This document shows, one piece after another, positions 22,698-35,895 of a stretch of DNA of 64,000 nt (positions within the stretch are counted from its first letter, which is position 1; every line of letters begins with the position of its first letter). This DNA comes from Myxococcaceae bacterium JPH2 (GTDB lineage: Bacteria; Myxococcota; Myxococcia; Myxococcales; Myxococcaceae). The position numbers and the translations under genes were made by a program. The stretch lies in assembly GCA_016458225.1 (NCBI GenBank), contig JAEMGR010000032.1, positions 1-64,000 on the forward strand. Reading direction: 5' to 3'. A model generated the notes under the pieces. It did no database searches. It saw nothing but the letters and a program-made list of their open reading frames with translations, and had not been told where the DNA came from.

Positions 22698-22708
<11 letters not shown>

Positions 22709-24812
22709 TCTTCTCCTGGAGGTGGGCGCCGAGGAGATTCCGGCGTCGTTCATCGTCCCCGCGCTGGAGGACCTGAAGCGCGTGCTCACCGAGCGGATGG
22801 CCGAGGCGCGCCTGAAGCACGGCGAGGTGCGCACCCTGGGAACGCCGCGCCGCCTGGCCGTGCTCGTGCGCGACATCGCTGACTCGGGCGACGACGTGGT
22901 GAAGGAGGTCCTCGGGCCCAGCGCCAAGGCCGCCTTCGATGCCCAGGGCAAGGCCACCAAGGCGGCGGAGAAGTTCGCCGAGAGCCTCAAGCTGGACGTG
23001 TCCGCGCTCGGGCGGACGCAGACCGCCAAGGGCGAGTACGTGTCCGCGCGAGTCGAGGAGAAGGGCCGCCCGGCCGCCGCGGTGCTCCAGGACGCGCTGC
23101 ACGCGGCGGTGCACGGCGTGAACTTCCGCAAGTCCATGCGCTGGGGCGACGTGGACGTGGCCTTTGCTCGACCGGTGCAGTGGCTGATCGCGCTGTTGGG
23201 CGGGGAGGTGTTGCCGGTGGTGTTCGGCGACGTGAAGAGTGGCCGCACCACCTACGGTCACCGCTTCCTGGCCCCGGGCGCCATCGAGGTGGCGGCGCCG
23301 AAGGACTACGAGCCCGCGCTGGAGAAGGCGCACGTCATTCCGGATCTCGCCAAGCGCCGCGCGCTCCTCGTGGAGCGGGTGCGGGCCGCGGCGCAGTCCG
23401 CGGGCGGCGCGGTGCTAGAGGACGAGGGGCTGATGGATCAGGTCACCAACCTGGTCGAGCTGCCGAATCCGGTGGTGGGCACGTTCGAGGCGCGTCACCT
23501 CGACCTGCCGCCCGAGGTGCTGGTGCAGGAGATGAAGAGCCACCAGCGCTATTTCTCGCTGGTGGACGGGCAGGGGAAGCTGCTGCCCAAGTTCATCGCG
23601 GTGTCCAACACGCCCGTGCGCGACCCGCAGCTCAGCCTGCGCGGCTACGAGCGCGTGCTGCGCTCGCGCCTGGCGGACGGACGCTTCTTCTTCGACGAGG
23701 ATCGCAAGACGCCGCTGGCCGACCGCGTGGAGAAGCTGGGCCGCGTGGTGTGGCAGAACCAGCTCGGCACCTACCTGGACAAGGTGGAGCGGTTTCGCTC
23801 GCTGGCCGTCTGGCTGGCGGAGCGCTCCGGCAAGGCGAGCGAGGCGGCCACCATCGAGCGCGCCGCCACGCTTTCCAAGGCGGACCTCGTCACGGGCATG
23901 GTGGGCGAGTTCCCCGAGCTGCAAGGCGTGATGGGCCGCGAGTACGCGCGCGTTGGGGGCGAGCCGGAGGCGGTGGCGGTCGCCATCTTCGAGCACTACC
24001 TGCCGCGTGGCGCCGAGGATGCGCTGCCGTCGCAGGACGGCGGGGCCTTTGTCGGCATCGCGGACCGGCTCGATTCGCTGTGCGGCATCTTCGCCATTGG
24101 CAAGGCGCCGTCGGGCGCGGCGGATCCGTTCGCGCTGCGTCGCGCCTGCCTGGCCATCATTCGCATCGTGCTGGGGCGGGGCTATCGCTTCAGCCTGTCG
24201 GGCGCGGTGGACGAGGCGCTGCGCTTGCTCGCGCCGAAGATCGCCAACGTGAAGCGAAAGCCGGGCGAGGCCCCGCCGCGCGAGCAGGTGCTGGAGTTCT
24301 TCCGCGGCCGCCTCAAGGCGCTGTGGGGGGAGCAGCACCGCACGGACGTGGTGGAGGCCGTGCTGTCCGCGGGGTTCGATGACCTGGTGGCGGCGCACAA
24401 GCGGGTGGAGGCGCTGAGCCTGCTCGTGGGGCGCGCGGACTTCCAGCCGCTCGCGGTGGCGTTCAAGCGCGTGGCGAACATCGTCGAGAAGCAGGGCAAG
24501 GACGTCGCGGAGGGGCAGACGAATCCGCAGAAGTTCACGGACGAGCCCGAGCGCAACCTGCACGCGGCCTTCACCCAGGCTCGCTCCAAGGTGGGCACCC
24601 TGGTGGGCACGGATGACTTCGCCGGCGCGCTGCGCGAGATCACCAGCCTGAAGCCCGCCGTGGATGTCTTCTTCGACAAGGTGATGGTGATGGCGGAGGA
24701 CAAGGACCTCCGCGAGAACCGCATCCGGTTCCTCACGGAGATTGGCGCCCTGTTCAATCAGGTGGCCGACTTCTCGAAGATCCAGGCCGAGACGCCCGCG
24801 TCCGCGGCCTGA
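22698..24812 (+). CDS. glyS: Glycyl-tRNA synthetase beta subunit
   Basis: A 704-residue GlyS starting with GTG at 22698 ([19 protein letters not shown]). It has the beta-subunit signatures [10 protein letters not shown] and [20 protein letters not shown], and the tRNA-binding C-terminal half including [19 protein letters not shown] and [16 protein letters not shown]. Its start overlaps glyQ by 11 nt in a different frame. GlyS binds tRNA-Gly and completes the GlyRS heterotetramer. Confidence 0.96.
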
Positions 24813-24965: not shown

Positions 24966-26507
24966 ATGCGCCCCTCCTTCCTGACCTCCGCGCTCCTGCT
25001 GCTCGCGTCGTGCTCGGCCACCACCGAGTCACACCCGCCTCCCTCGACCCGCTTCGTGTACCCAAGCGGACTCGAGTTCTGGCGACCCGCGGGCAGCCTT
25101 TCGCCGTCCACCAACGGCTACCTCTTCGTCGCGAGCGCCAACTTCGACAGCTGCTTCGACAGCGGCGCGGTCATGGCGGTCAACCTGGATGCGATTGGAA
25201 AGGGAGAAGGCAAGCCGCTGCCCACCCTGGACCCCGCGCATCCCTTCAGCGGCTCACCGCTGGAGATCACCGAGCTGAACGTGCCCTCCGAGGCGTACGT
25301 CCAGATCGACAGCTTCGCGGGGGAGATGGCCTCGTGGAGCAACCCCGGCAACGGTGGGTTGCCGCGCCTCTTCGTGCCGTCTCGCGCGAAGAACAACTTC
25401 CTGCACGCCATCGACTTCAAGCTGGATGGCAGCACGGGCTCCCTCGCGTGCGCGCAGAGCGGCGCCGGGCGTGACTGCTCTCAGAACGCGCTGTCGCTCT
25501 CGAGCGACATTCCGCACTCGGAGGCGGACCTCCCAAGGGCGCCTTCGCCCATTGGCGTCACCGTGGATCCGGCCTCGGGTGCCGTGTACGTGACGCACTC
25601 GGAAGCGGCGGACTCTCCGGCGCGCACGAGCAAGAACTTCGCGAGCTACCTGGTCTCGGTGCCGGCGGACAAGCCCGTCCGAGACAGCTTGGAGTTCATC
25701 CTGCTGTCGCGTGACGGCCTGACGTACGGCGGCACGGACGCGACGGCGGTGGGGGACGGGTACCTCTACGTCACCGGGCGCAACTACGTGCAGGGCTCGT
25801 CGGGCACGGTGGGCGCCAGCTTCATCCTCCGGCTGGTCGACAAGTACGACCACGCGCACGTCATCGAGCCGAACGTCTTCTCGCAGGTCCGCATCAGCGA
25901 GGCGCGTGGGGCGCAGGTGGTGCGCGCTCCGGTGGACCCCGCCGCGCCCCTGGTGCGCAAGGAGCGGCTCTACATGCTGGCCCGCGGGCCAGACACGCTG
26001 CTCGTCTTCGACTTCGAGTACAAGCTGCCGGATCCAGCCCTCGGCGAGCAGCGCCCGAGCACGCCCACGTTCCGCATCGTCTCGACCGTGCCGTTGCCGG
26101 GTGGAACGAGCGAGCTGCGGCTGGTGCGCCGCTCGAAGGACTCGGTGGGGGACAACATCATCGCGGTGACGAGCACGACGGATGGCGCCCTGTCCCTCTA
26201 TGACGAGAAGCTGGGGCAGGTCGTCGCGCAGGTGGCGCTCGGCACGGGCTTGAACCAGAACACGAACCCCACGCAGTCCTTCGGTCTGGCGGTCGACAAC
26301 CCGGACGGAGAGCTGGCCGCAGGGGCTGCGGGACGGCTGAACGCGGCCCGGATTTTCGTGACGAACTTCGGCGCGGGCCAGGTCACAGTGGTCGACATTC
26401 CCGAACTCAATCGTCCCCAAGATGCACGCCTCGTCGCGCGCATCGGCACGCGCCAGGAGCGCGATCTGCGCCAGGGCACCAGCGTGTGTGAGGAGAACAA
26501 CCCGTGA
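24966..26507 (+). CDS. Probable beta-propeller-like lipoprotein at the head of the Kil/Tad locus
   Basis: A 513-residue lipoprotein with lipobox LASC at Cys16 in a typical N-terminus (MRPSFLTSALLLLASC). The mature chain has repeated strand-turn units (for example VTVDPASGAVYVTHSEAAD, TAVGDGYLYVTGRNYVQGSS, IIAVTSTTDGALSLYDEKLG), as in YncE/SMP-30-type propellers. This is a pattern reading, not a fold assignment. Its TGA overlaps the GTG of the next gene by 4 nt, so the two lipoproteins are co-translated. No enzyme motif is visible; a surface or binding role for the Tad-like machine is inferred from context. Confidence 0.75.
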   Translation: MRPSFLTSALLLLASCSATTESHPPPSTRFVYPSGLEFWRPAGSLSPSTNGYLFVASANFDSCFDSGAVMAVNLDAIGKGEGKPLPTLDPAHPFSGSPLEITELNVPSEAYVQIDSFAGEMASWSNPGNGGLPRLFVPSRAKNNFLHAIDFKLDGSTGSLACAQSGAGRDCSQNALSLSSDIPHSEADLPRAPSPIGVTVDPASGAVYVTHSEAADSPARTSKNFASYLVSVPADKPVRDSLEFILLSRDGLTYGGTDATAVGDGYLYVTGRNYVQGSSGTVGASFILRLVDKYDHAHVIEPNVFSQVRISEARGAQVVRAPVDPAAPLVRKERLYMLARGPDTLLVFDFEYKLPDPALGEQRPSTPTFRIVSTVPLPGGTSELRLVRRSKDSVGDNIIAVTSTTDGALSLYDEKLGQVVAQVALGTGLNQNTNPTQSFGLAVDNPDGELAAGAAGRLNAARIFVTNFGAGQVTVVDIPELNRPQDARLVARIGTRQERDLRQGTSVCEENNP

Positions 26508-28666
26508 AGCGCAGCACCCTTGCCGCCCTGATGCTGGGCGCCGCCGGCTTGACCGGGGCGTGCTCGGATACGACGACGACCGCTGGCGCCGCGGGCCTGT
26601 CGGGCACGTATGACGTTGCGCTCGTGGACCCGCTCGTCTTCGTGACGTCGCAGGACCAGAACGAGCTGCGCGTGCTGGACCTGGACAGCTCGCCGCGCCA
26701 GTTCATGCCCGCCCCCAACCCGCTCCAGCCCTTGGCCATCCCAGTCCTGGAGCGGCCGGACGCGCTCACGCGAGACACGGGCTACGACGCCGCGGGCTTC
26801 GATGTGCGGGGGCCCTATGTGTACGCCCGCAGCTCTGGAGGTCAGCGCATCTCCGTGGTGGCCGCGGATCGCTCACGGCTCGTCGAGGTGCAGCGCCTGG
26901 ACGTGGGCGCGCTGCTGACGGCGTTCGCGGCGCGGTCTCCCGCGGCCGACGGCGCGCCCAGCGTGCTCTACTACGCCCTGCAGACCCAGCCGGCCGGCAT
27001 GGATGCGACGGCGTGCCCCGCGGGAGTGGGCGTCATCATGCGGCAGGAGCTGCCAGGGCCGGACGCGCTCGCGAGCGCCTCGTTGCCCGCGCCCACGCCG
27101 GTCTTCTGCATGGATCCGCAGGAGTCCGCGCTGTCCCTGGTGGTGTTGCCGAAGGTCGATGCCTCTGGGACGTCGGCAGGGGAGCCCGAGCCGCTGGCGG
27201 TGGCGCTGCGCAACGTCAATCGTTCCTCGGCCAATCCTGGCGCGACCCTCAGCCGGACCATCCGCATCCGGGGCGAGGTCACCGCCGCCGGTCCGAAGCA
27301 GACTCCGCTGGTCACCTACACGCGGCCCGAGCAGGGCGCGGGGACCGGAACGGCCATCGCCGCGCGGCTGCTGGCCACGCATTCCATCGTCCAGTCGGAG
27401 GTCGTCGACGGCGATGGCAAAGTGGTCACGGACGAGAATGGCAACATCGTCTTCACGCCTGTTCCGGGGATGGGCGCCGGGCGATTCATCTACGCGGTGC
27501 TCGATGAGTTGACCTGCACGGGCGCCAGCTGCGTGGGCGTCATCGCGATCGACTCGGAGACGGGCCAGTTGGCCAAGGACGTCACGGGCGCGGACATGCT
27601 CACGCTCCTGCCTCCCGCGGGCCTGCCCACGGGGCTGACCCTGCACCGGGGCCTGAACATCAACAACCGCAGCGACAGTGGGACTGCCAAGGCCTTCTAT
27701 CCGCTGCTGGGGATCATGCCGTCCTCGGATGGCACCATCACGCTGTTCCGTGCCGACACGCGCCGCGCGCTCAACCTGTCGACGTCCGTGCCGACCAAGA
27801 AGGTCGAGCTGCGGGACGCGCTGGAAGTGGCGCGGTCCCCTCAGCCAGACAACCCGGTCCAGGTGGTCCAGGGCTACCGGGACCCGAATGATCCGCTCAA
27901 CGTCATTCCGGTGTGCACGGACACGAACAGCCTGTGTGGAGGCTCGCTCCCGAGCATCACCTGGCGCATCGTCGCCAACGGAGTCCTGCCGGGGCTCTCC
28001 GCGGTGGCCCGGGACGTCAACAGCCCCGTGCTGACCGTGGACGCAGCCCAGGGCAGCCTCATCCAGGACAACGACCTCATCTCGCTCCAGACGGATACGG
28101 TGGCGTGCAGCACGAACCTGCGGGTCAAGAAGGTCACGCTGGGCGACGGACGGGTGCAGATCCTCGACACCGCCGTGACGCCGCTGCCGACCGACTGCGC
28201 CGCGTACGGGCGGTTCTCGGTGCTCGCGGACGGGGCGGAGAAGTTCGTCCTCTACTCGGGCACGGAGACCAGCGACAACTACGTCCGCCGGCTCGCGGGG
28301 GCGACGTACTACGAGATCCTGCAGCCCTCGTCGTACTACTACCACCCGGACAACTTCGGTAAGCCCGGGTTCCCGGCCACGCCGCCCTCTGCGTTCCTGT
28401 ACATCAGCTACACCACGGTGCAGGCGGGAGACCGCTACGTGGTGGGCCTGTCTTCGGGATACCGCCCGTACGTGTTCTCCGTGGACAACTCGAGCACGTC
28501 GGGGCTGAGCGCGTTCCGCCTGCCGGGACCCGTGGTCGCGGCCGAGGTCAACTCGAATACCGAGGCCTATATCGCCTACCCGTCAGCGGACGGCATCCTC
28601 CAGGTCACGCTCCAGGTCGTGGTGGACAACGAGGCCAACCTCCAGGCTGTGCGCTCGTTCCAGTAA
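26504..28666 (+). CDS. Second large lipoprotein, Kil/Tad locus (propeller-like)
   Basis: A 720-residue lipoprotein starting with GTG at 26504, overlapping the preceding stop. The signal sequence MKRSTLAALMLGAAGLTGAC gives a lipid-anchored Cys20. It contains repeated short strand motifs, such as VFVTSQDQNELRVLDLDSSP and AVLDELTCTGASCVGVIAID. Several Cys residues in CTGASC and CTDTNSLCGG could form disulfides. No recognised family was assigned by eye. Its coupling with the preceding gene suggests a two-protein outer-surface complex feeding the secretin below. Confidence 0.7.
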   Translation: MKRSTLAALMLGAAGLTGACSDTTTTAGAAGLSGTYDVALVDPLVFVTSQDQNELRVLDLDSSPRQFMPAPNPLQPLAIPVLERPDALTRDTGYDAAGFDVRGPYVYARSSGGQRISVVAADRSRLVEVQRLDVGALLTAFAARSPAADGAPSVLYYALQTQPAGMDATACPAGVGVIMRQELPGPDALASASLPAPTPVFCMDPQESALSLVVLPKVDASGTSAGEPEPLAVALRNVNRSSANPGATLSRTIRIRGEVTAAGPKQTPLVTYTRPEQGAGTGTAIAARLLATHSIVQSEVVDGDGKVVTDENGNIVFTPVPGMGAGRFIYAVLDELTCTGASCVGVIAIDSETGQLAKDVTGADMLTLLPPAGLPTGLTLHRGLNINNRSDSGTAKAFYPLLGIMPSSDGTITLFRADTRRALNLSTSVPTKKVELRDALEVARSPQPDNPVQVVQGYRDPNDPLNVIPVCTDTNSLCGGSLPSITWRIVANGVLPGLSAVARDVNSPVLTVDAAQGSLIQDNDLISLQTDTVACSTNLRVKKVTLGDGRVQILDTAVTPLPTDCAAYGRFSVLADGAEKFVLYSGTETSDNYVRRLAGATYYEILQPSSYYYHPDNFGKPGFPATPPSAFLYISYTTVQAGDRYVVGLSSGYRPYVFSVDNSSTSGLSAFRLPGPVVAAEVNSNTEAYIAYPSADGILQVTLQVVVDNEANLQAVRSFQ

Positions 28667-28729: not shown

Positions 28730-29608
28730 ATGATCGATCAGAACTCCCGCCCTGCCCGCAAGGTCGGCATCGCCGACCACCTGTGGGAGACGTACGAAGA
28801 CATGGCCCAGCAGATGGGCTCCGATCGTGACGCGCTCATCAATCAGGCGCTGTTCATGTTCGCCCGGCTGAATGGGTTCATCGAGGCGAGAGGCCGGGGA
28901 GAGGCCTCCGCCGCCGTGGCTCCCGCGCCGGCTGCTTCGCGTCCCGCCGCCGCCCCCCCGCCGTCCCGCCCCGCGTCTCCGCCGGTGCTCGCGCCCGCGC
29001 CGGCGCCCCGCCTGGAGCCGACCCCGCAGCCTGCCCCTGCCGCACGCCCTCCGCCGCGCCTCGCCGAGGAGCGCGCCTCCGCCAACAACGGGCTCGACAA
29101 CGACCCGGCGCGTCGCGAGGTCGCGGAGCGCGTGTTGGAGACGGCCGCGGAGCTGGAGCGGCTCATCAAGGGGAAGAACGAGCCGCCTCCTCCCAACGAC
29201 GACATGGTCGAGGACGAGGAGCCCCTGCCGGACAACGAGGACCCGGGCATGGAGGATATGCCCGACGAGCCCGCGGAGCCCGAGCCGGAGGAAGAGGAGA
29301 GCGCCGACGAACTCGCCGAGGAGGAGGGCGCGGCCCTCTACCTGGTGACCGAGTCCGGGGACGAGGAGCAGATCGTCAAGGAGCGCTTCGTCATCGGCCG
29401 CGGCAAGCACTGCGACTTCGTCATCAACTCGGGCAAGGTGTCGCGCGAGCACGCTGTCATCACGAATGACGGCGGCGAGTTCTTCATCGAGGACCTGGGT
29501 TCGTCCAACGGCACGTGGTTCAACAAGAACCGCATCAAGCGCCGGAAGATTGAAGACGGGGACGAGTACTTCATCTGCAGTGAGAAGATTCGCCTCCTGG
29601 TCCGGTGA
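28730..29608 (+). CDS. FHA-domain protein with ribbon-helix-helix-like N-terminus
   Basis: A 292-residue soluble protein. Residues 12-55 (GIADHLWETYEDMAQQMGSD then RDALINQALFMFARLNGF) look like a ribbon-helix-helix or short helical module. A Pro/Ala-rich and then strongly acidic linker follows (about 65-205). The C-terminal FHA domain (about 212-292) has phosphothreonine-binding signatures GR, SREHAVI and LGSSNGTWFNK. FHA domains bind pThr peptides. It lies between the two lipoproteins and the Tad-like genes, so it probably senses kinase signalling for the machine. Confidence 0.85.
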   Translation: MIDQNSRPARKVGIADHLWETYEDMAQQMGSDRDALINQALFMFARLNGFIEARGRGEASAAVAPAPAASRPAAAPPPSRPASPPVLAPAPAPRLEPTPQPAPAARPPPRLAEERASANNGLDNDPARREVAERVLETAAELERLIKGKNEPPPPNDDMVEDEEPLPDNEDPGMEDMPDEPAEPEPEEEESADELAEEEGAALYLVTESGDEEQIVKERFVIGRGKHCDFVINSGKVSREHAVITNDGGEFFIEDLGSSNGTWFNKNRIKRRKIEDGDEYFICSEKIRLLVR

Positions 29609-29712: not shown

Positions 29713-30249
29713 ATGACACCTGCTCAGCTCGCGCTGTGGACGATCCTCGGAGTGGCACTGGTGATCTCGGTGGTGACGGATGTCCTGCGCCGCCGGATCC
29801 TGGATGTCGTCACCTACCCGCTCGTGGTGGTGGCGCTGGGCACGCGTCTGGCCACCGAGGGGTGGGGCGGTCTGGAGCAGGGGTTGGTGAGCGGGGCAGT
29901 GTCGGGACTGGGGCTGTCGTTGGTGCTCCTGCCCGGCGCGTTACGGGGGCGGATGGGGTGGGGTGACGTGAAGCTGATGGCCGGCGTGGGCGCGGTGCTG
30001 GGGTTCCCGGCGGTGCTCGCGGCGGCGGCCTTCATCTCGCTGGTGGGCGCGCTGCAGGCAACGGTGACGTTGCTGTGGCATGGCGCCGTGTGGGACACGC
30101 TGGCGGCGGTGGGGCGGCGGTGGGCGGTGCGGGCGCGGTTGTTGCGCGAGGACGCGGACATCGGGCCGCGGCACAGCATTCCCTACGGGGTGGCCATCGC
30201 GCTTGGCACCTTCTGGGCCATGTGGTGGCAGCACAAGAGTTTGGGTTAG
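29713..30249 (+). CDS. kilA: Prepilin peptidase, CpaA/TadV type (KilA-like)
   Basis: A 178-residue membrane protein of the minimal A24 family, with no methyltransferase domain. Aspartates D23 (in SVVTDVLRRR) and D85 (in MGWGDVKLMAGVG) are the conserved catalytic pair of type 4 prepilin peptidases. About five hydrophobic segments are visible. The Tad-type peptidase cleaves Flp pilin and pseudopilin leaders. It lies directly before a CpaC-type secretin. The name follows my memory of the M. xanthus Kil nomenclature, where letters follow Cpa names. Confidence 0.85.
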   Translation: MTPAQLALWTILGVALVISVVTDVLRRRILDVVTYPLVVVALGTRLATEGWGGLEQGLVSGAVSGLGLSLVLLPGALRGRMGWGDVKLMAGVGAVLGFPAVLAAAAFISLVGALQATVTLLWHGAVWDTLAAVGRRWAVRARLLREDADIGPRHSIPYGVAIALGTFWAMWWQHKSLG

Positions 30250-30284
30250 CTCGGATTCGGAACGCGGAAGAGGGGTCTCGTACG

Positions 30285-31733
30285 ATGTACACACGCTTCA
30301 CGCACGCTGCGGCACTTGGCGCTCTCGTCGCTCTCGTGGCCAGTGCTCCGGCGCTGGCCCAGGAGGGCAGCACCGTCAGCCTGGGAGTGGGCACCCAGAA
30401 GGTGGTCAGCATCCCCGGCCTGAGCCGAGTCGCCCTTGGCGACCCGTCCGTCGCGGATGTGAGCACGCTGGGCACCAGCCAGCTGCTCATCACCGGTAAG
30501 CAGGAAGGCAAGACGACGCTGCTCGTCTGGAAGACGTCAGGCCAGCGCGTCAGCTACAACGTCACCGTCCGCAAGCAGGACCCCAACGAGGTCATCTCGG
30601 AGATCAAGCGACTCCTGGGAGAGATCGAGGGCGTCTCGGTGCGCATGGTGGGTGACCGCATCTACCTGGACGGTCAGGCCTACACGACGCAGGACGCGGA
30701 CCGCATCGAGCAGGTGGTGAGCCTCTATCCGAACGTGAAGTCGTTCGTGAAGATCGCCCCCAACGCCAAGAAGCTGGTCGCGCAGAACCTCAACGCGGCC
30801 TTCCAGAAGGCCGGGCTGCGCAACGTGCAGGCCAACGTGGTGGGCGCCACCATCTTCCTGGAGGGCTCCGTGGAGAGCCAGCAGGACCTGCAGAAGGCCG
30901 AGCTCATCACCAAGGCCATCGGCGAGAAGGTGGAGAACCTGCTGGTGGTCGGCATCAAGCGGATGATCCTCACCGAGGTCCAGTTCGTCGAAATCCGCCG
31001 CGACAGCCGCGACCGGTACGGCATCAAGTACCCGACGGACATCACGGGCACGGCGAGCATCGCGGCCAACATCACCCAGGAGCTGTTCCCGGGCACGTTC
31101 GGGCAGGGCGCCTCGCAGATCGGCATCGGCGCGGGCTCGGCGTTCACGGTGGGCTTCCAGAGCAACGACGGCTACGGCCGCCTGCTCGCCCAGCCGAAGC
31201 TGGTGTGCGCCAGCGGTGAGAAGGCGGAGTTCCTGGCGGGCGGCGAGGTTCCCATCCCGCTCATCACGAACACGCAGGCCACGGTCGAGTTCAAGCCCTA
31301 CGGCGTCATCCTGAACATCCGGCCCACGGCGGACCGCAACGGCAACATCCAGACCGAGGTCGAGGCCGAGGCGTCGGAGATCGACACGTCAGTGGCCGTC
31401 TCCTTCGGTGGTTCGTCCGCCATCCCCGGCTTCCGGACCCGCAAGGTGAAGACGAACGTCACCGTGCGCCACGGAGAGACCATCGTGCTGTCGGGTGTCT
31501 TCAGCCACGACGAGCAGAAGGCCGTCTCGAAGATTCCGGGCCTGGGCAACATCCCCATCGTGGGCGAGCTGTTCAAGAACCGCGCGTTCGACACGACCAA
31601 GCGCGAGCTGGTCATCTTCGTCACGCCGCGCATCGTGAACCCGGATTCCGACAAGGTCCGGACCATCATCGAGGACGTGAAGAGCCGCTACAAGCAGGCG
31701 CGCTCCGAGGTGAACTTCAACATCTTCGACTGA
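30285..31733 (+). CDS. kilC: Tad/Kil secretin, CpaC type
   Basis: A 482-residue protein with signal peptide ending ALAQ-EG. The N-terminal part is a Pil-N/BON-like domain (VSLGVGTQKVVSIPGLSRV; GDRIYLDGQAYTTQDADR), followed by a second BON-like repeat (VVGATIFLEGSVESQQDLQK). The secretin domain proper starts with MILTEVQFVEIRRDS and includes GYGRLLAQPKLVCASGEKAE and PLITNTQATVEFKPYG. The C-terminus ends RELVIFVTPRIVNP, the usual secretin end. It should form the outer-membrane channel. It lies just before the FHA-ATPase. Confidence 0.92.
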   Translation: MYTRFTHAAALGALVALVASAPALAQEGSTVSLGVGTQKVVSIPGLSRVALGDPSVADVSTLGTSQLLITGKQEGKTTLLVWKTSGQRVSYNVTVRKQDPNEVISEIKRLLGEIEGVSVRMVGDRIYLDGQAYTTQDADRIEQVVSLYPNVKSFVKIAPNAKKLVAQNLNAAFQKAGLRNVQANVVGATIFLEGSVESQQDLQKAELITKAIGEKVENLLVVGIKRMILTEVQFVEIRRDSRDRYGIKYPTDITGTASIAANITQELFPGTFGQGASQIGIGAGSAFTVGFQSNDGYGRLLAQPKLVCASGEKAEFLAGGEVPIPLITNTQATVEFKPYGVILNIRPTADRNGNIQTEVEAEASEIDTSVAVSFGGSSAIPGFRTRKVKTNVTVRHGETIVLSGVFSHDEQKAVSKIPGLGNIPIVGELFKNRAFDTTKRELVIFVTPRIVNPDSDKVRTIIEDVKSRYKQARSEVNFNIFD

Positions 31734-31768
31734 GCGAGGGGCCCCTCGGGGGCCACCATCGCGGTGAC

Positions 31769-31817
31769 GGGCCGGGCTCGCCTCTCTTCCAGAGGCGGGT
31801 GCCGGCCCGGTTTCTTT
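31769..31817 (+). terminator. Terminator or attenuator between secretin and FHA-ATPase genes
   Basis: An outer 7-bp stem (31769-31775 with 31802-31808) and an inner 6-bp stem (31780-31785 with 31791-31796, 5-nt loop), followed by GGTTTCTTTC. It sits in the 153-nt gap after the secretin stop. It could separate transcription of the ATPase and the membrane FHA protein from the upstream genes. Confidence 0.6.
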
Positions 31818-31886
31818 CAGGCATCACGCGCGGGAGACGAGCAGCGCCCTTTGAGGTGGCGTGGGTGCTTGGTAGGATCCGCCCCC

Positions 31887-33662
31887 ATGTTTCTGATCAC
31901 CCTCGCGGAAAAGGGCGGCGGAACCGAGCAGCGTGAGTTCGACAAGAACGAGATCACGATCGGCCGTCTTGCAGGAAACGACATCGTCCTCGCGAAGGGC
32001 AACGTCTCCAAATACCACTCCCGCATCGTCGCGAAGGACGGCAAGTGCATCATCGTGGACATGAAGTCCACGAACGGCACCTTCGTGAACGGCAAGAAGA
32101 TCGGCGCGCCGCAGGTGCTCAAGCCGTCCGATCAGATCTACATCGGCGACTACATCATCAACGCGGAGATCCTCGATGAGGAGGCGCCCGCGATGACGCG
32201 CACCGCCGCTCCCGAGGAGGAGTACTACGACGAGGGCGGCGAGGAGGCCTACGAGCAGGAGGAAGAGGAGGCCTACGAAGAAGAGGCGCCCGAAGAGGCA
32301 CCTGCCCCGGCGGCTCCCGCGAAGAACATGCCTGCGTCGCTCGCCGCGGCGATGGCGAAGAACAAGAAGAAGGTGGACCCCCGGCTGGAGCGCTACTCGC
32401 GCTTGCAGAAGGAGATCCACGATCGGCTCATCGAGTACCTCGACCTGCGTCGCATGGACATGGACCGGCTCGGTGACGAGGAACTCTGGCGCCGCACCGA
32501 GAAGGCCATCCGCGACATCATCGACCAGATGGACGCGGACGGTGAGTTGCCCGAGGACGTGGACCGCGAGGAGCTGCTCACCGACGTCATCAACGAGGCG
32601 CTGGGCCTGGGGCCCCTCGAAGCGTTCCTCGCGTCGGATGAGATCAGCGAGATCATGGTGAACCACGCCAACCAGATCTACATCGAGCGCAAGGGCAAGC
32701 TGACGCTGTCGGAGAAGACGTTCTCGTCGAACCAGGCGGTGCTGGGCGTCATCGAGCGCATCGTGGCGCCCATCGGACGCCGCATCGACGAGTCGAGCCC
32801 GCTGGTGGACGCGCGCCTCAAGGACGGCAGCCGCGTGAACGCCATCATCCCGCCGCTGGCGCTCAAGGGCCCCTGCATCACCATCCGCAAGTTCAAGAAG
32901 GACTCGCTGAAGATCCAGGACCTGGTGAAGTACAAGACGCTCACCGCGCAGATGGCCGAGTTCCTGGAGATGTGCGTGAAGGCCCGGCGCAACATCGTCA
33001 TCTCGGGCGGCACGGGCTCGGGGAAGACGACGACGCTGAACATCATCAGCTCGTTCATCCCCGACAGTGAGCGCATCGTCACGGTGGAGGACGCCGCGGA
33101 GCTCCAGCTGCCGCAGGACCACTGGGTGCAGCTGGAGAGCCGCCCGCCCAACCTGGAAGGCAAGGGCGCCATCACCATCCGCGACCTGGTGAAGAACTGC
33201 CTGCGCATGCGGCCGGACCGCATCGTCGTGGGTGAGTGCCGCTCGGGCGAGACGCTGGACATGCTCCAGGCCATGAACACCGGCCACGACGGTTCGCTCA
33301 CCACGCTGCACGCGAACACGCCGCGAGACGCCATCGCTCGGCTGGAGACGATGGTGCTCATGTCCGGCATGGAGCTGCCGGTGAAGGCCATCCGCGAGCA
33401 GATCGCCAGCGCGGTGCACATGATCGTGCAGCAGACGCGCTTCTCCGACGGTACGCGGAAGATCTGCTACGTCACCGAGGTGTCGGGCATGGAGGTCGAC
33501 ATCGTGACCCTCCAGGACATCTTCTACTTCAAGCAGGACGGGTTCACGGAGGACCACAAGGTGCGTGGCCGCTTCGTGGCGTCGGGCTTCGTGCCGAAGT
33601 TCTACGACGAGCTTCAGCGCAAGGGCATTCCCGTGAACATGAGCATCTTCCGCGAGGACTGA
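31887..33662 (+). CDS. kilF: CpaF-type Tad ATPase fused to an N-terminal FHA domain (KilF-like)
   Basis: A 591-residue protein. An N-terminal FHA domain (about 24-95) has GR27, S41-x2-H44 and STNGTF from 61. An acidic Glu/Tyr/Ala linker (about 100-135) follows. The rest is the secretion ATPase of the TadA/CpaF/VirB11 type. Walker A is GGTGSGKTT at 374-382 (Lys380), and the Asp-box/Walker B segment is MRPDRIVVGECRSGE. The C-terminal H-box reads LTTLHANTPRDA. It powers assembly of the Tad-type machine in the cytoplasm. Fusion of FHA to CpaF implies direct phosphothreonine control. The gene starts 153 nt after the secretin and is followed 7 nt later by another FHA gene. Confidence 0.93.
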   Translation: MFLITLAEKGGGTEQREFDKNEITIGRLAGNDIVLAKGNVSKYHSRIVAKDGKCIIVDMKSTNGTFVNGKKIGAPQVLKPSDQIYIGDYIINAEILDEEAPAMTRTAAPEEEYYDEGGEEAYEQEEEEAYEEEAPEEAPAPAAPAKNMPASLAAAMAKNKKKVDPRLERYSRLQKEIHDRLIEYLDLRRMDMDRLGDEELWRRTEKAIRDIIDQMDADGELPEDVDREELLTDVINEALGLGPLEAFLASDEISEIMVNHANQIYIERKGKLTLSEKTFSSNQAVLGVIERIVAPIGRRIDESSPLVDARLKDGSRVNAIIPPLALKGPCITIRKFKKDSLKIQDLVKYKTLTAQMAEFLEMCVKARRNIVISGGTGSGKTTTLNIISSFIPDSERIVTVEDAAELQLPQDHWVQLESRPPNLEGKGAITIRDLVKNCLRMRPDRIVVGECRSGETLDMLQAMNTGHDGSLTTLHANTPRDAIARLETMVLMSGMELPVKAIREQIASAVHMIVQQTRFSDGTRKICYVTEVSGMEVDIVTLQDIFYFKQDGFTEDHKVRGRFVASGFVPKFYDELQRKGIPVNMSIFRED

Positions 33663-33669
33663 CGCGCCC

Positions 33670-35895
33670 ATGGCTACCCTGGTCGTCCGTCACCCTGATG
33701 GCAGCGAGACTGAACATGCCCTCACTGGCGAGCTGAAGATTGGCCGCCAGGAAGGCAATGACCTGCTCCTCACCGAGGGCGGCGTGTCGCGCAATCACGC
33801 GCGCGTCTTCGAGGACGGGGGCAGCGTCTTCATCGAAGACCTCAAGAGCGCCAACGGCACCTACGTTGATGGGGAGCGCATCGAGGAGGCCACGCCGCTC
33901 TCGCCGCAGTCGAAGGTGGTGCTGGGCGACTACGAGCTTCAGCTCAAGGCCGCGGCCCGAGGCACGTCGGGGGCGCGCAAGGCGGTGAAGCCGACGTCCT
34001 CGCCCGGCGGGGTGCCGCTGGGGACGGGTGAAGCCCGTGCCACGCGCGCCATGCCGAGCCTGCAGCAGAAGAAGGCCGCGGGGCCCGCGCCTGGCGCGGC
34101 GATCGCCAAGCGTCCCGCGCGTCCCGCCGCTGGCAGCGGAGCCGGGGCCCCCACCGCGGCCACGGGCCCCATGTTGCGCGGCATGACGGGGCCGTGGGCG
34201 GGCAAGACTTTCAACATCGGCGCCAAGCTGCTCGTCGGGCGGCAGCCTCCCGCGGGCGTCGTCCTCGAGGACGACTCGGTGAGCCGGCGCCACGCGGAGC
34301 TGGAGCGCGCGGGCCCCGTGGTGCGCGTGCGCGACCTGGGCAGCGCCAACGGCACGCTCCTCAACGGCGAGGTGCTGGGCACCGAGCCCATCGAGCTGCA
34401 GGCCGGGGACGTCCTCCAGTTCGGCGTGGTGGAGATGACGTTCGAGGCCCCGGAGGCGCTCGATGCGCCCGTGCGTCGCGCGGGCGCCACGCCCTCGCGC
34501 TCGGGGCGCGGAGCCCCCGAGGAGGCTTCCCCGGGGCGGGGCAAGCTCATCATGGCCGTGATGGGCGTGGTGGGCCTGCTCGTGGTGGGCGCGGTGGCCA
34601 AGGCGGCGCTCAGCGCCTCGAACGGCGAGACGCCCATCGAGCGCAAGGGGCCGTCGGCGCCGACGGATCCCGCCGCTCAGCTTCAAGACCTGCTCAGCGA
34701 GTGCCGCTCCTTCGCATCCGCCGAGCAGGGCGCGCCGAACTGGGTGCGCGCCGAAGAGACGTGCACCAAGGCCCTGGACCTGGACCCCATCAACCCCGAG
34801 GGCAACACGCTCATCCGCCGCATCAAGCTGGAGCGCGAGGCCTCGGACAACTTCGCGGCGGGCGTGAAGGCGCTGGAGCGTCTGAAGGAGAAGGACGCGA
34901 TCGACGCCTTCAAGAAGATTCCGAAGGAGAGCGAGTACTTCCGCCGCGCCAAGTCCAAGGCCAAGGACGCCTCGGAGCAGTACTCCAAGCGCTCCCTGGA
35001 CGACTGCAAGCGCTACCTCAACAACTCCCAGTGGGAAGTGGCCGTGCCCCGGTGCGACGAGTACCTCCAGCTCTGGTGCTCGGCGCAGAACCAGGAGGAC
35101 CTGACGCCGCCCTTGGGCTTCACGTTGAGGTTGGAGGGCAAGCTGCGCCGCAACGAGTGGCGGCCGAAGGATGCGCTCCTCGTGCGCTTCCTGGTCGCGC
35201 GCGCCAAGGTGAGTCCGAAGGCGGAGCCCTGGAAGTGCAGCAAGGACATCATCTTCACGGATGACGACCGGGCGCCGGATCCCGCCGCGGAAGTGCGGCA
35301 GTGGATCAACAAGAAGTACGTCAACAAGTTCATGCAGGCCGCGATGGTGGACTACTGGTACGGCCGCGGGAGCGAGGCGCTCGCGACGCTCCAGAAGCTG
35401 CGGTCGAACTTCGAGGCTTCCCAGTTCCACGCCGAGACGGATCTGCTGCTCAAGGACATGGGCAACGTGGATCAGCTCTTCAAGGTGGGCGAGAGCGCGT
35501 TGACGGCCGAGGACCCGGAGAAGGCCGCGGGCTTCTTCCGCGAGGCGCTGGAGACGGACACGCGCCTCATGGCCAACATGGCGGAGAGCCACCCGTCGTT
35601 CTACCGGAAGAACATCCTCCAGGACATGGCCACCAAGGCGTACGCCCGTGGCAAGCACTGGGCGGATCGCGAGGACAAGCGCAAGGCCTGCCGCATCTGG
35701 AAGCTCGGCTTCGAGTTCTACCGAGGCAGCACCGACCTCAACAAGGCGGTGGCCTTCTGCTCGGGGCAGGCGTCGCAGGCGCTCTCCGGAGCGGGGGGAT
35801 GCTCGGACCTCGCGGTGGTGGAGGACTACGCGGTGCCGGGAGACGGTGTCGCGGAGCAGCTGGCGGGGAAGAAGCAGGAGTGGAAGTGCCACTAG
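33670..35895 (+). CDS. Double-FHA, single-span membrane protein with helical C-terminus
   Basis: A 741-residue protein. FHA1 (about 20-95) has GRQEGND, VSRNHARVF and LKSANGTYVDG. FHA2 (about 170-260) has GRQPPAG, VSRRHAELE and LGSANGTLLNG. A single transmembrane helix is at about 293-314. A long helical periplasmic region with TPR-like repeats follows (DYWYGRGSEALATLQKLRSN; AAGFFREALETDTRLMANM). It probably scaffolds the Tad-like machine in the inner membrane. Pairing of cytoplasmic FHA domains with periplasmic repeats resembles signal-transducing scaffold proteins of secretion systems. Function is inferred from context. Confidence 0.85.
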   Translation: MATLVVRHPDGSETEHALTGELKIGRQEGNDLLLTEGGVSRNHARVFEDGGSVFIEDLKSANGTYVDGERIEEATPLSPQSKVVLGDYELQLKAAARGTSGARKAVKPTSSPGGVPLGTGEARATRAMPSLQQKKAAGPAPGAAIAKRPARPAAGSGAGAPTAATGPMLRGMTGPWAGKTFNIGAKLLVGRQPPAGVVLEDDSVSRRHAELERAGPVVRVRDLGSANGTLLNGEVLGTEPIELQAGDVLQFGVVEMTFEAPEALDAPVRRAGATPSRSGRGAPEEASPGRGKLIMAVMGVVGLLVVGAVAKAALSASNGETPIERKGPSAPTDPAAQLQDLLSECRSFASAEQGAPNWVRAEETCTKALDLDPINPEGNTLIRRIKLEREASDNFAAGVKALERLKEKDAIDAFKKIPKESEYFRRAKSKAKDASEQYSKRSLDDCKRYLNNSQWEVAVPRCDEYLQLWCSAQNQEDLTPPLGFTLRLEGKLRRNEWRPKDALLVRFLVARAKVSPKAEPWKCSKDIIFTDDDRAPDPAAEVRQWINKKYVNKFMQAAMVDYWYGRGSEALATLQKLRSNFEASQFHAETDLLLKDMGNVDQLFKVGESALTAEDPEKAAGFFREALETDTRLMANMAESHPSFYRKNILQDMATKAYARGKHWADREDKRKACRIWKLGFEFYRGSTDLNKAVAFCSGQASQALSGAGGCSDLAVVEDYAVPGDGVAEQLAGKKQEWKCH

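Follow-up and report, generated by a model that had tools for sequence, protein, structure and literature searches.

Does a gene pair that stands at the head of a kil gene cluster belong to the machine encoded behind it? This question is raised by two genes in a 64,000-nucleotide (nt) stretch of the Myxococcaceae bacterium JPH2 (GenBank assembly GCA_016458225.1, contig JAEMGR010000032.1, positions 1 to 64,000 of the forward strand; hereafter the window). LpA (24966..26507, + strand) is an open frame for a 513-amino-acid (aa) lipoprotein, and LpB (26504..28666, + strand) is an open frame for a lipoprotein of 720 aa. The gene order is glyQ, glyS, LpA, LpB, FHA protein, kilA, kilC, kilF, kilD, polA. 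An earlier note, made from the sequence alone, had placed the pair at the head of this Kil/Tad locus, and indeed it lies directly ahead of FHA-kilACFD. The note had also suggested that the two proteins could form a cap or prey-binding element of the Tad system on the outer surface. We found instead that homologues of the pair are widespread without the Tad genes of the locus. With moderate confidence we therefore favour the view that LpA and LpB are a coupled envelope pair of ancient origin, whose core job does not depend on Kil and which later became a neighbour, and perhaps a partner, of Kil.

The corresponding locus of Myxococcus xanthus AM003 (L113; L, G and f denote our loci, genomes and families) reads glyS-LpA-LpB-FHA-kilA-kilC-kilF-kilD-polA, with 48% (LpA) and 40% (LpB) identity to the window. 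Published text describes kil cluster I as MXAN_3102-3108 with "two predicted OM lipoproteins" (OM, outer membrane; PMC8460266), kilACF as MXAN_3105-3107 (PMC12075869) and KilD as MXAN_3108 (PMC8460266). Since these numbers and the span of the cluster fix the positions, LpA and LpB correspond by gene order to MXAN_3102 and MXAN_3103, which share their place and order and differ in nothing of kind. The pair is therefore not new as genes, because both genes have already been published as lipoprotein genes, and the published text gives neither fold nor function for them (PMC8460266). A propeller assignment or the upkeep of the pair without Kil was not found in the running text of open-licence PubMed Central papers.

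The pair is kept without the kil core

We surveyed 195 Myxococcota genomes with profiles of LpA (cut-off E≤1e-5) and of the secretin KilC (E≤1e-60). LpA matched in 178 and KilC in 132 of the genomes. When both tables were combined, 126 genomes had LpA and KilC, 52 LpA alone, 6 KilC alone and 11 neither, the last class including G123, whose region reads N, and G086, which does have LpA. Few candidates were scored per genome and G086 was missed although the gene is present by locus reading (L183), so the LpA counts are lower bounds. LpA is not confined to genomes with the Tad secretin and ATPase: it occurred without KilC in 52 of the 178 LpA-positive genomes, weak matches included. In family f5, probably Anaeromyxobacteraceae, LpA was found in 22 of 24 genomes (23 with G086, by locus reading) and KilC in none of the 24. 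KilC without an LpA match was seen in G010, G014, G055, G167, G169 and G170; the contig stops inside the pair in G010 and G014 (L087, L088) and 2.7 kb past the FHA gene in G055 (L084). The Corallococcus-like G123 was rejected as a natural loss of the whole cluster, its region reading N. G033 (contig ends after LpB), G107 (80% complete) and the fragmentary G013 and G025 were left out as Kil-less examples.

Gene order was then read directly. In 21 genomes we found (glyS)-LpA-LpB-(FHA)-polA without kilA, kilC, kilF and kilD in between; by synteny, the block missing from these Kil-less relatives is kilA-kilC-kilF-kilD (29713..35895 in the window). Three of the 21 are Myxococcaceae (G021, G027 and G007; L062-L064) and 18 belong to f5 (L065, L068, L073, L074, L090, L162-L165, L167-L169, L171-L175 and L183). 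The gene glyS lies upstream of the pair wherever the contig extends that far, which it does not in G007; L064 begins inside LpA. The FHA gene occupies its place in 14 of these loci (3/3 Myxococcaceae, 11/18 f5) but not in L065, L167, L168, L169, L173, L174 and L175. A check for N covered 20 Kil-less loci of 19 genomes, all but L167 and L168, and detected none; L143 and L173 represent the same contig. Nine of the 21 genomes were covered by a search for KilF, and five of them, G007, G021, G027, G039 and G050, yielded no such ATPase at E≤1e-50. In two of the Kil-less Myxococcaceae loci, an additional gene lies between glyS and LpA and encodes a predicted secreted protein (L062, 8632-9156, 174 aa; L063, 826-1302, 158 aa).

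LpB is intact in the Kil-less lineages. The ratio of non-synonymous to synonymous substitution rates (dN/dS) was 0.49 for L063/L064 and 0.22, 0.21, 0.43 and 0.40 for four f5 comparisons, which have members in common. LpB is under purifying selection without Kil. In a test set of 42 sequences, 13 proteins from the LpB slot of f5 matched the LpB profile at E 1.1e-7 to 9.4e-20; L113, L064 and the window LpB belong to, or equal members of, this profile. A motif around (Y/W)(Q/E)G.LPGL matched 24 of the 42 chosen sequences, some of them off-register, and none of the window copy and L062-L064; it was not used as a test. In a tree of GlyS from 49 loci, the Kil-less Myxococcales loci fell into two separate groups, f5 and G021+G027, and well-supported branches forced two changes; the tree was built by a quick method and contains long branches, and its change count cannot separate gain from loss. 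Family f5 and two Myxococcaceae genera are thus available as natural Kil-less controls, and the maintenance of the kil cluster I pair without the kil core shows that a place in the cluster need not mean a part in the pilus.

Even among Kil-positive bacteria, the pair does not always lie beside the kil core. It does so in families f1, f2, f6, f7 and f9, as LpA-LpB-FHA-kilACFD or nearly so (f6 has no FHA match between). Pair and core are apart in f3, f4, f8, f10 and L186-L192. In family f3, the stretch fetched holds LpA-LpB-FHA but no kil genes (L078, L130, L131 and L133, the last three being G049, G053 and G044 by contig coordinates), and KilC lies on another contig of these genomes; f8 has both apart in G042 (L071, L086), and f4 has FHA-kilACFD without the pair in the stretch of G038 (L081) and an LpA match on another contig. 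Family f10 (L178, L179), the nearest to the order Myxococcales, has glyS-PPDK-LpA-LpB, kilC lying elsewhere. Seven distant genomes (L186-L192) have kilC-kilF without an adjoining pair in the stretch fetched. The outgroup loci L138, L141 and L150 read glyQ-glyS-PPDK-serine/threonine (Ser/Thr) kinase-LpA-LpB without kil, mutS being next in L138 and L141, while L134 reads kinase-LpA-LpB-mutS, again without kil, and L146 and L151 have glyQ-glyS-LpA only. Outgroup orders were obtained with tblastn and profiles, and Pfam was applied to three neighbours in L141 (PPDK, kinase and MutS), to the kinase genes of L134 and L150, and to PPDK of L178. Given the gene orders of the outgroup, f10 and L186-L192, the place of the pair beside glyS appears to predate its place beside kil.

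Gene structure and predicted folds

LpA starts with ATG 24966 and stops with TGA at 26505-26507. Its frame is open upstream as far as TTG 24858; we took ATG 24966 as the start because it gives a lipobox and agrees with the starts of relatives. LpB starts with GTG at 26504, so that stop and start overlap in the sequence GTGA (26504..26507, + strand), and a Shine-Dalgarno-like hexamer, GAGGAG (26490..26495, + strand), lies within the 3' end of lpA. Both proteins carry the N-terminal signal and lipobox cysteine of bacterial lipoproteins, L13-A14-S15-C16 in LpA (25002..25013, + strand) and T17-G18-A19-C20 in LpB (26552..26563, + strand), and such lipoboxes are modelled in most relatives. Thus the two lipoproteins and the overlap described in the earlier note are present as described. 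The residue at +2 after the lipobox cysteine is serine in both; of 12 M. xanthus lipoproteins predicted to reside in the inner membrane, 8 are reported to have lysine at this position (PMC3222651). In the text of the same work, MXAN3103 is among 44 lipoproteins of an outer-membrane mass-spectrometry list (3 peptides, Table 4), the companion outer-membrane list contains the secretin MXAN3106 (10 peptides), and MXAN3102 appears in neither (PMC3222651).

The closest named relative of the window locus is that of Citreicoccus inhibens (L101), with LpA 95% identical (dN/dS 0.12) and LpB 88% (dN/dS 0.36). At E≤0.001, relatives of LpA were present in 50 and of LpB in 39 of 60 related genomes; within the genome of the window, each gave a single match at E≤0.01. 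We regard both as real genes because of these dN/dS values and the relatives in most related genomes. LpB had the highest dN/dS of nine locus genes in this comparison; LpA was followed by KilD (0.11), KilA (0.11), glyS (0.08), the FHA protein (0.07), glyQ (0.02), KilF (0.01) and KilC (0). The differences in LpB were distributed along the protein, with fewest in residues 1-60 and 541-600.

The 4-nt overlap recurred in 24 of the 30 named loci that have both starts modelled. A wider set held 83 loci, nine of them without a modelled LpB start and some of them duplicate records, with starts picked by lipobox score; here, the overlap was present in 45 of 74 loci, and in 69 of 74 the modelled lipoprotein start of LpB lay within 30 nt of the LpA stop. 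An overlap of 4 nt is by itself common in bacteria, but its conservation here surpasses chance. From the sequence we infer that LpA and LpB are translationally coupled. A scan for promoters and terminators revealed nothing exceeding shuffled sequences.

Pfam (E≤0.1) and NCBIfam (E≤1) gave no match for either window copy, in keeping with the earlier view that they are not standard Tad parts, and no sequence relatedness between LpA and LpB was detectable past the N-terminus. An AlphaFold2 model of LpA, built with 35 LpA sequences including the window copy, reached a predicted local distance difference test score (pLDDT) of 85.3 and a predicted template modelling score (pTM) of 0.88. Its best bacterial match was Escherichia coli YncE (3vgz; Z 31.9, root mean square deviation 3.2 Å over 305 aligned residues, 17% identity). 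Eukaryotic WD40 propellers tied with YncE (top row Z 32.0); the fold is very common. In addition, the LpA profile matched the YVTN propeller 1l0q, a Methanosarcina surface-layer protein, at E 7.2e-8, and a distant LpA relative (L134) scored 22.1 against the Pfam YNCE cut-off of 27.1, which the window LpA did not reach either. The model of LpB (20 sequences; pLDDT 76.6, pTM 0.77) also superposed on propeller chains (Z 25-27), roughly 300 of its 720 residues being aligned, scattered over 31-720; the remainder is insertions, and parts of 219-284 have very low confidence. LpA and LpB are thus each predicted to form one seven-bladed beta-propeller, YncE-like in LpA and with long insertions in LpB, the blade number being taken from the superposed known structures and not counted on model coordinates. 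These models and fold comparisons bear out the 'repeated beta structures' that the earlier note had read from the sequence. Sharing a fold demonstrates no function.

The likeness to YncE/YVTN propellers consists of the model superposition and the profile match. Compared with YncE, LpA is lipid-anchored and longer, and it stands in tandem with a second propeller gene. Beta-propellers at a pilus locus are also known from the PilY1/PilC tip adhesins of type IV pili. Unlike these, LpA and LpB are lipoproteins, are kept without pilus genes and have no match to the Neisseria_PilC domain at the Pfam threshold used. TadD and RcpB are lipoproteins encoded in Tad loci, but they are tetratricopeptide repeat (TPR) or small proteins, whereas LpA and LpB are predicted propellers.

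Possible roles of the pair

How might such a pair work? LpA and LpB would be co-produced by translational coupling, exported and lipidated, at least the LpB orthologue being carried to the outer membrane, and each would there form a lipid-tethered seven-bladed propeller. Coupled translation suggests a fixed LpA:LpB ratio, and the two probably act as a stoichiometric pair. Since propeller folds often serve as protein-binding platforms, this pair is probably a scaffold or receptor on the outer membrane. Its core envelope function would be common in Myxococcota and independent of the Kil machine. Adjacency to kilACFD would have arisen in several families of Myxococcales, in which Kil may use the pair as a partner.

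Several points weigh against this explanation. Many of the 52 matches to LpA alone are weak and distant and may include other YVTN propellers; gene position was therefore checked too. Four of the nine Kil-less genomes searched for KilF (G045, G054, G057 and G059) have another Tad-type ATPase elsewhere in the genome and are therefore not Tad-free. The homology of the outgroup LpB is, on partial support, less well backed than that of LpA. LpB-slot proteins of L138, L141, L142 and L197 reached only E 0.001 to 0.8 against the LpB profile, and a profile-profile comparison of two LpB groups was suggestive only (probability 66%, E 5.7e-5, 218 columns). Because these sequence links are weak, the identity of the outgroup LpB rests mostly on its adjacency to LpA and its lipoprotein form. 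Of two distant families, f17 (L197, L198) has the order PPDK-LpA-LpB slot-FHA/TadA-like-KilD-like, and f14 (L195) has one gene between the pair and a TadA-like gene behind it; the genomes of these three loci had no KilC match at E≤1e-60. Given these neighbourhoods, the tie of the pair to Kil-type proteins may be old, and a functional tie to Kil-type FHA/ATPase proteins, either ancestral or acquired more than once, is possible. Furthermore, co-expression of genes from clusters 1 and 2 has been reported for M. xanthus (PMC8460266), and the open-licence text, with the scope given above, yielded no experiment on or mutant of MXAN_3102 or MXAN_3103.

A plainer explanation is a housekeeping envelope pair without any functional tie to Kil, situated in a glyS-polA region into which kilACFD came or from which it was lost. 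The separation of pair and core in f3, f4, f8, f10 and the outgroup loci and the retention of the pair in two Kil-less clades agree with it. We nevertheless consider it unlikely, given the adjacency, or near adjacency, in f1, f2, f6, f7 and f9, the return of FHA/TadA-like and KilD-like genes beside the pair in f17 and the reported co-expression. The propellers might alternatively be sensors of prey or envelope contact that signal to the FHA proteins (28730-29608 and KilD) gathering the Kil machine, with the pilus as no more than the output. Even in kil mutants, NG-KilD clusters are reported to appear when prey is touched, and the authors suggest that the gene clusters might encode an upstream sensor (PMC8460266). 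LpA-LpB-FHA persists without kilACFD in 14 of the 21 loci, the pair follows a Ser/Thr kinase gene in L134, L138, L141 and L150, and LpB evolves fastest of the nine locus genes. On the other hand, we identified no link from the outer membrane to the cytoplasm, Kil-less bacteria retain the genes without a Kil to trigger, and seven of the 21 Kil-less loci do not have the FHA gene in place. We therefore hold contact sensing to be doubtful, but it makes the pair a concrete candidate for the component acting ahead of Kil at prey contact. A broader version, still more speculative, would make LpA-LpB, together with the adjoining FHA protein and its possible ribbon-helix-helix N-terminus or with a Ser/Thr kinase, a phylum-wide envelope-contact sensing module that predates Kil, onto which Kil was wired, and which supplies the missing upstream sensor siting the killing machine. 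This would fit because KilD clusters are reported at prey contact even in kil mutants.

Two further explanations tie the pair closely to the Kil machine, and the Kil-less loci argue against both. Secretin pilotins are lipoproteins, and the pair might likewise guide the KilC secretin to the outer membrane or brace it there; the M. xanthus proteome lists for this membrane contain both MXAN3103 and MXAN3106 (PMC3222651). Yet the pair is kept where KilC was not found, and we regard such an assembly factor as improbable. The predicted fold, moreover, differs from that of TPR or small pilotins. The Kil-specific surface cap or prey-binding element of the earlier note draws on the position heading the locus, on the fast evolution of LpB and on the fact that propellers often bind proteins. 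That note had itself named homologues found widely without the Tad genes as the result that would speak against it, and the comparison of Kil-positive with Kil-negative bacteria gave exactly this. The published text, in addition, places the minor pilins KilL/M/N at Kil pilus tips (PMC12075869). As an exclusive function the cap is ruled out by the Kil-less carriers, and we give the Kil-specific element very little credence. A surface or prey-contact role as such is conceivable. What stands of the earlier interpretation is the lipoprotein nature, the all-beta character, the place in the locus and the non-Tad identity; the Tad-specific cap or prey-binding element is not supported.

Neighbouring genes and further observations

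Upstream of the pair in the window lies glyS (22698..24812, + strand), a frequent neighbour outside Myxococcales too. Downstream, the FHA protein at the MXAN_3104 position (28730..29608, + strand; FHA E 3e-19) is a frequent third member of the module. Its FHA domain is C-terminal, and its conserved N-terminus matches CopG ribbon-helix-helix repressors weakly at profile positions 11-44 (E 0.16); this combination is retained in 14 of the 21 Kil-less loci. The kil genes follow on the + strand, with their Pfam domains: kilA, a prepilin peptidase (29713-30249; Peptidase_A24); kilC, the secretin (about 30282-31733; Secretin); kilF, an ATPase with an FHA domain (about 31884-33662; T2SSE+FHA); and kilD, with two FHA domains (33670-35895; FHA).

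A second TadA-like ATPase, 46% identical to KilF, is encoded elsewhere in the genome of the window (G000:C3:62533-63549). Of 60 related genomes, 42 had at least two KilF matches at E≤1e-50, some of which may be split hits. Probably mislabelled is the record named Comamonas sp. KCTC 72670 (L122), in which kil cluster I is complete and of the Myxococcaceae type. Among the loci of the window family, L066 and L181 (genus code g20) come from small genomes (2.7 and 2.3 Mb) that retain kil cluster I, and a Myxococcaceae metagenome-assembled genome from sheep colon (gut; L133) retained LpA-LpB-FHA.

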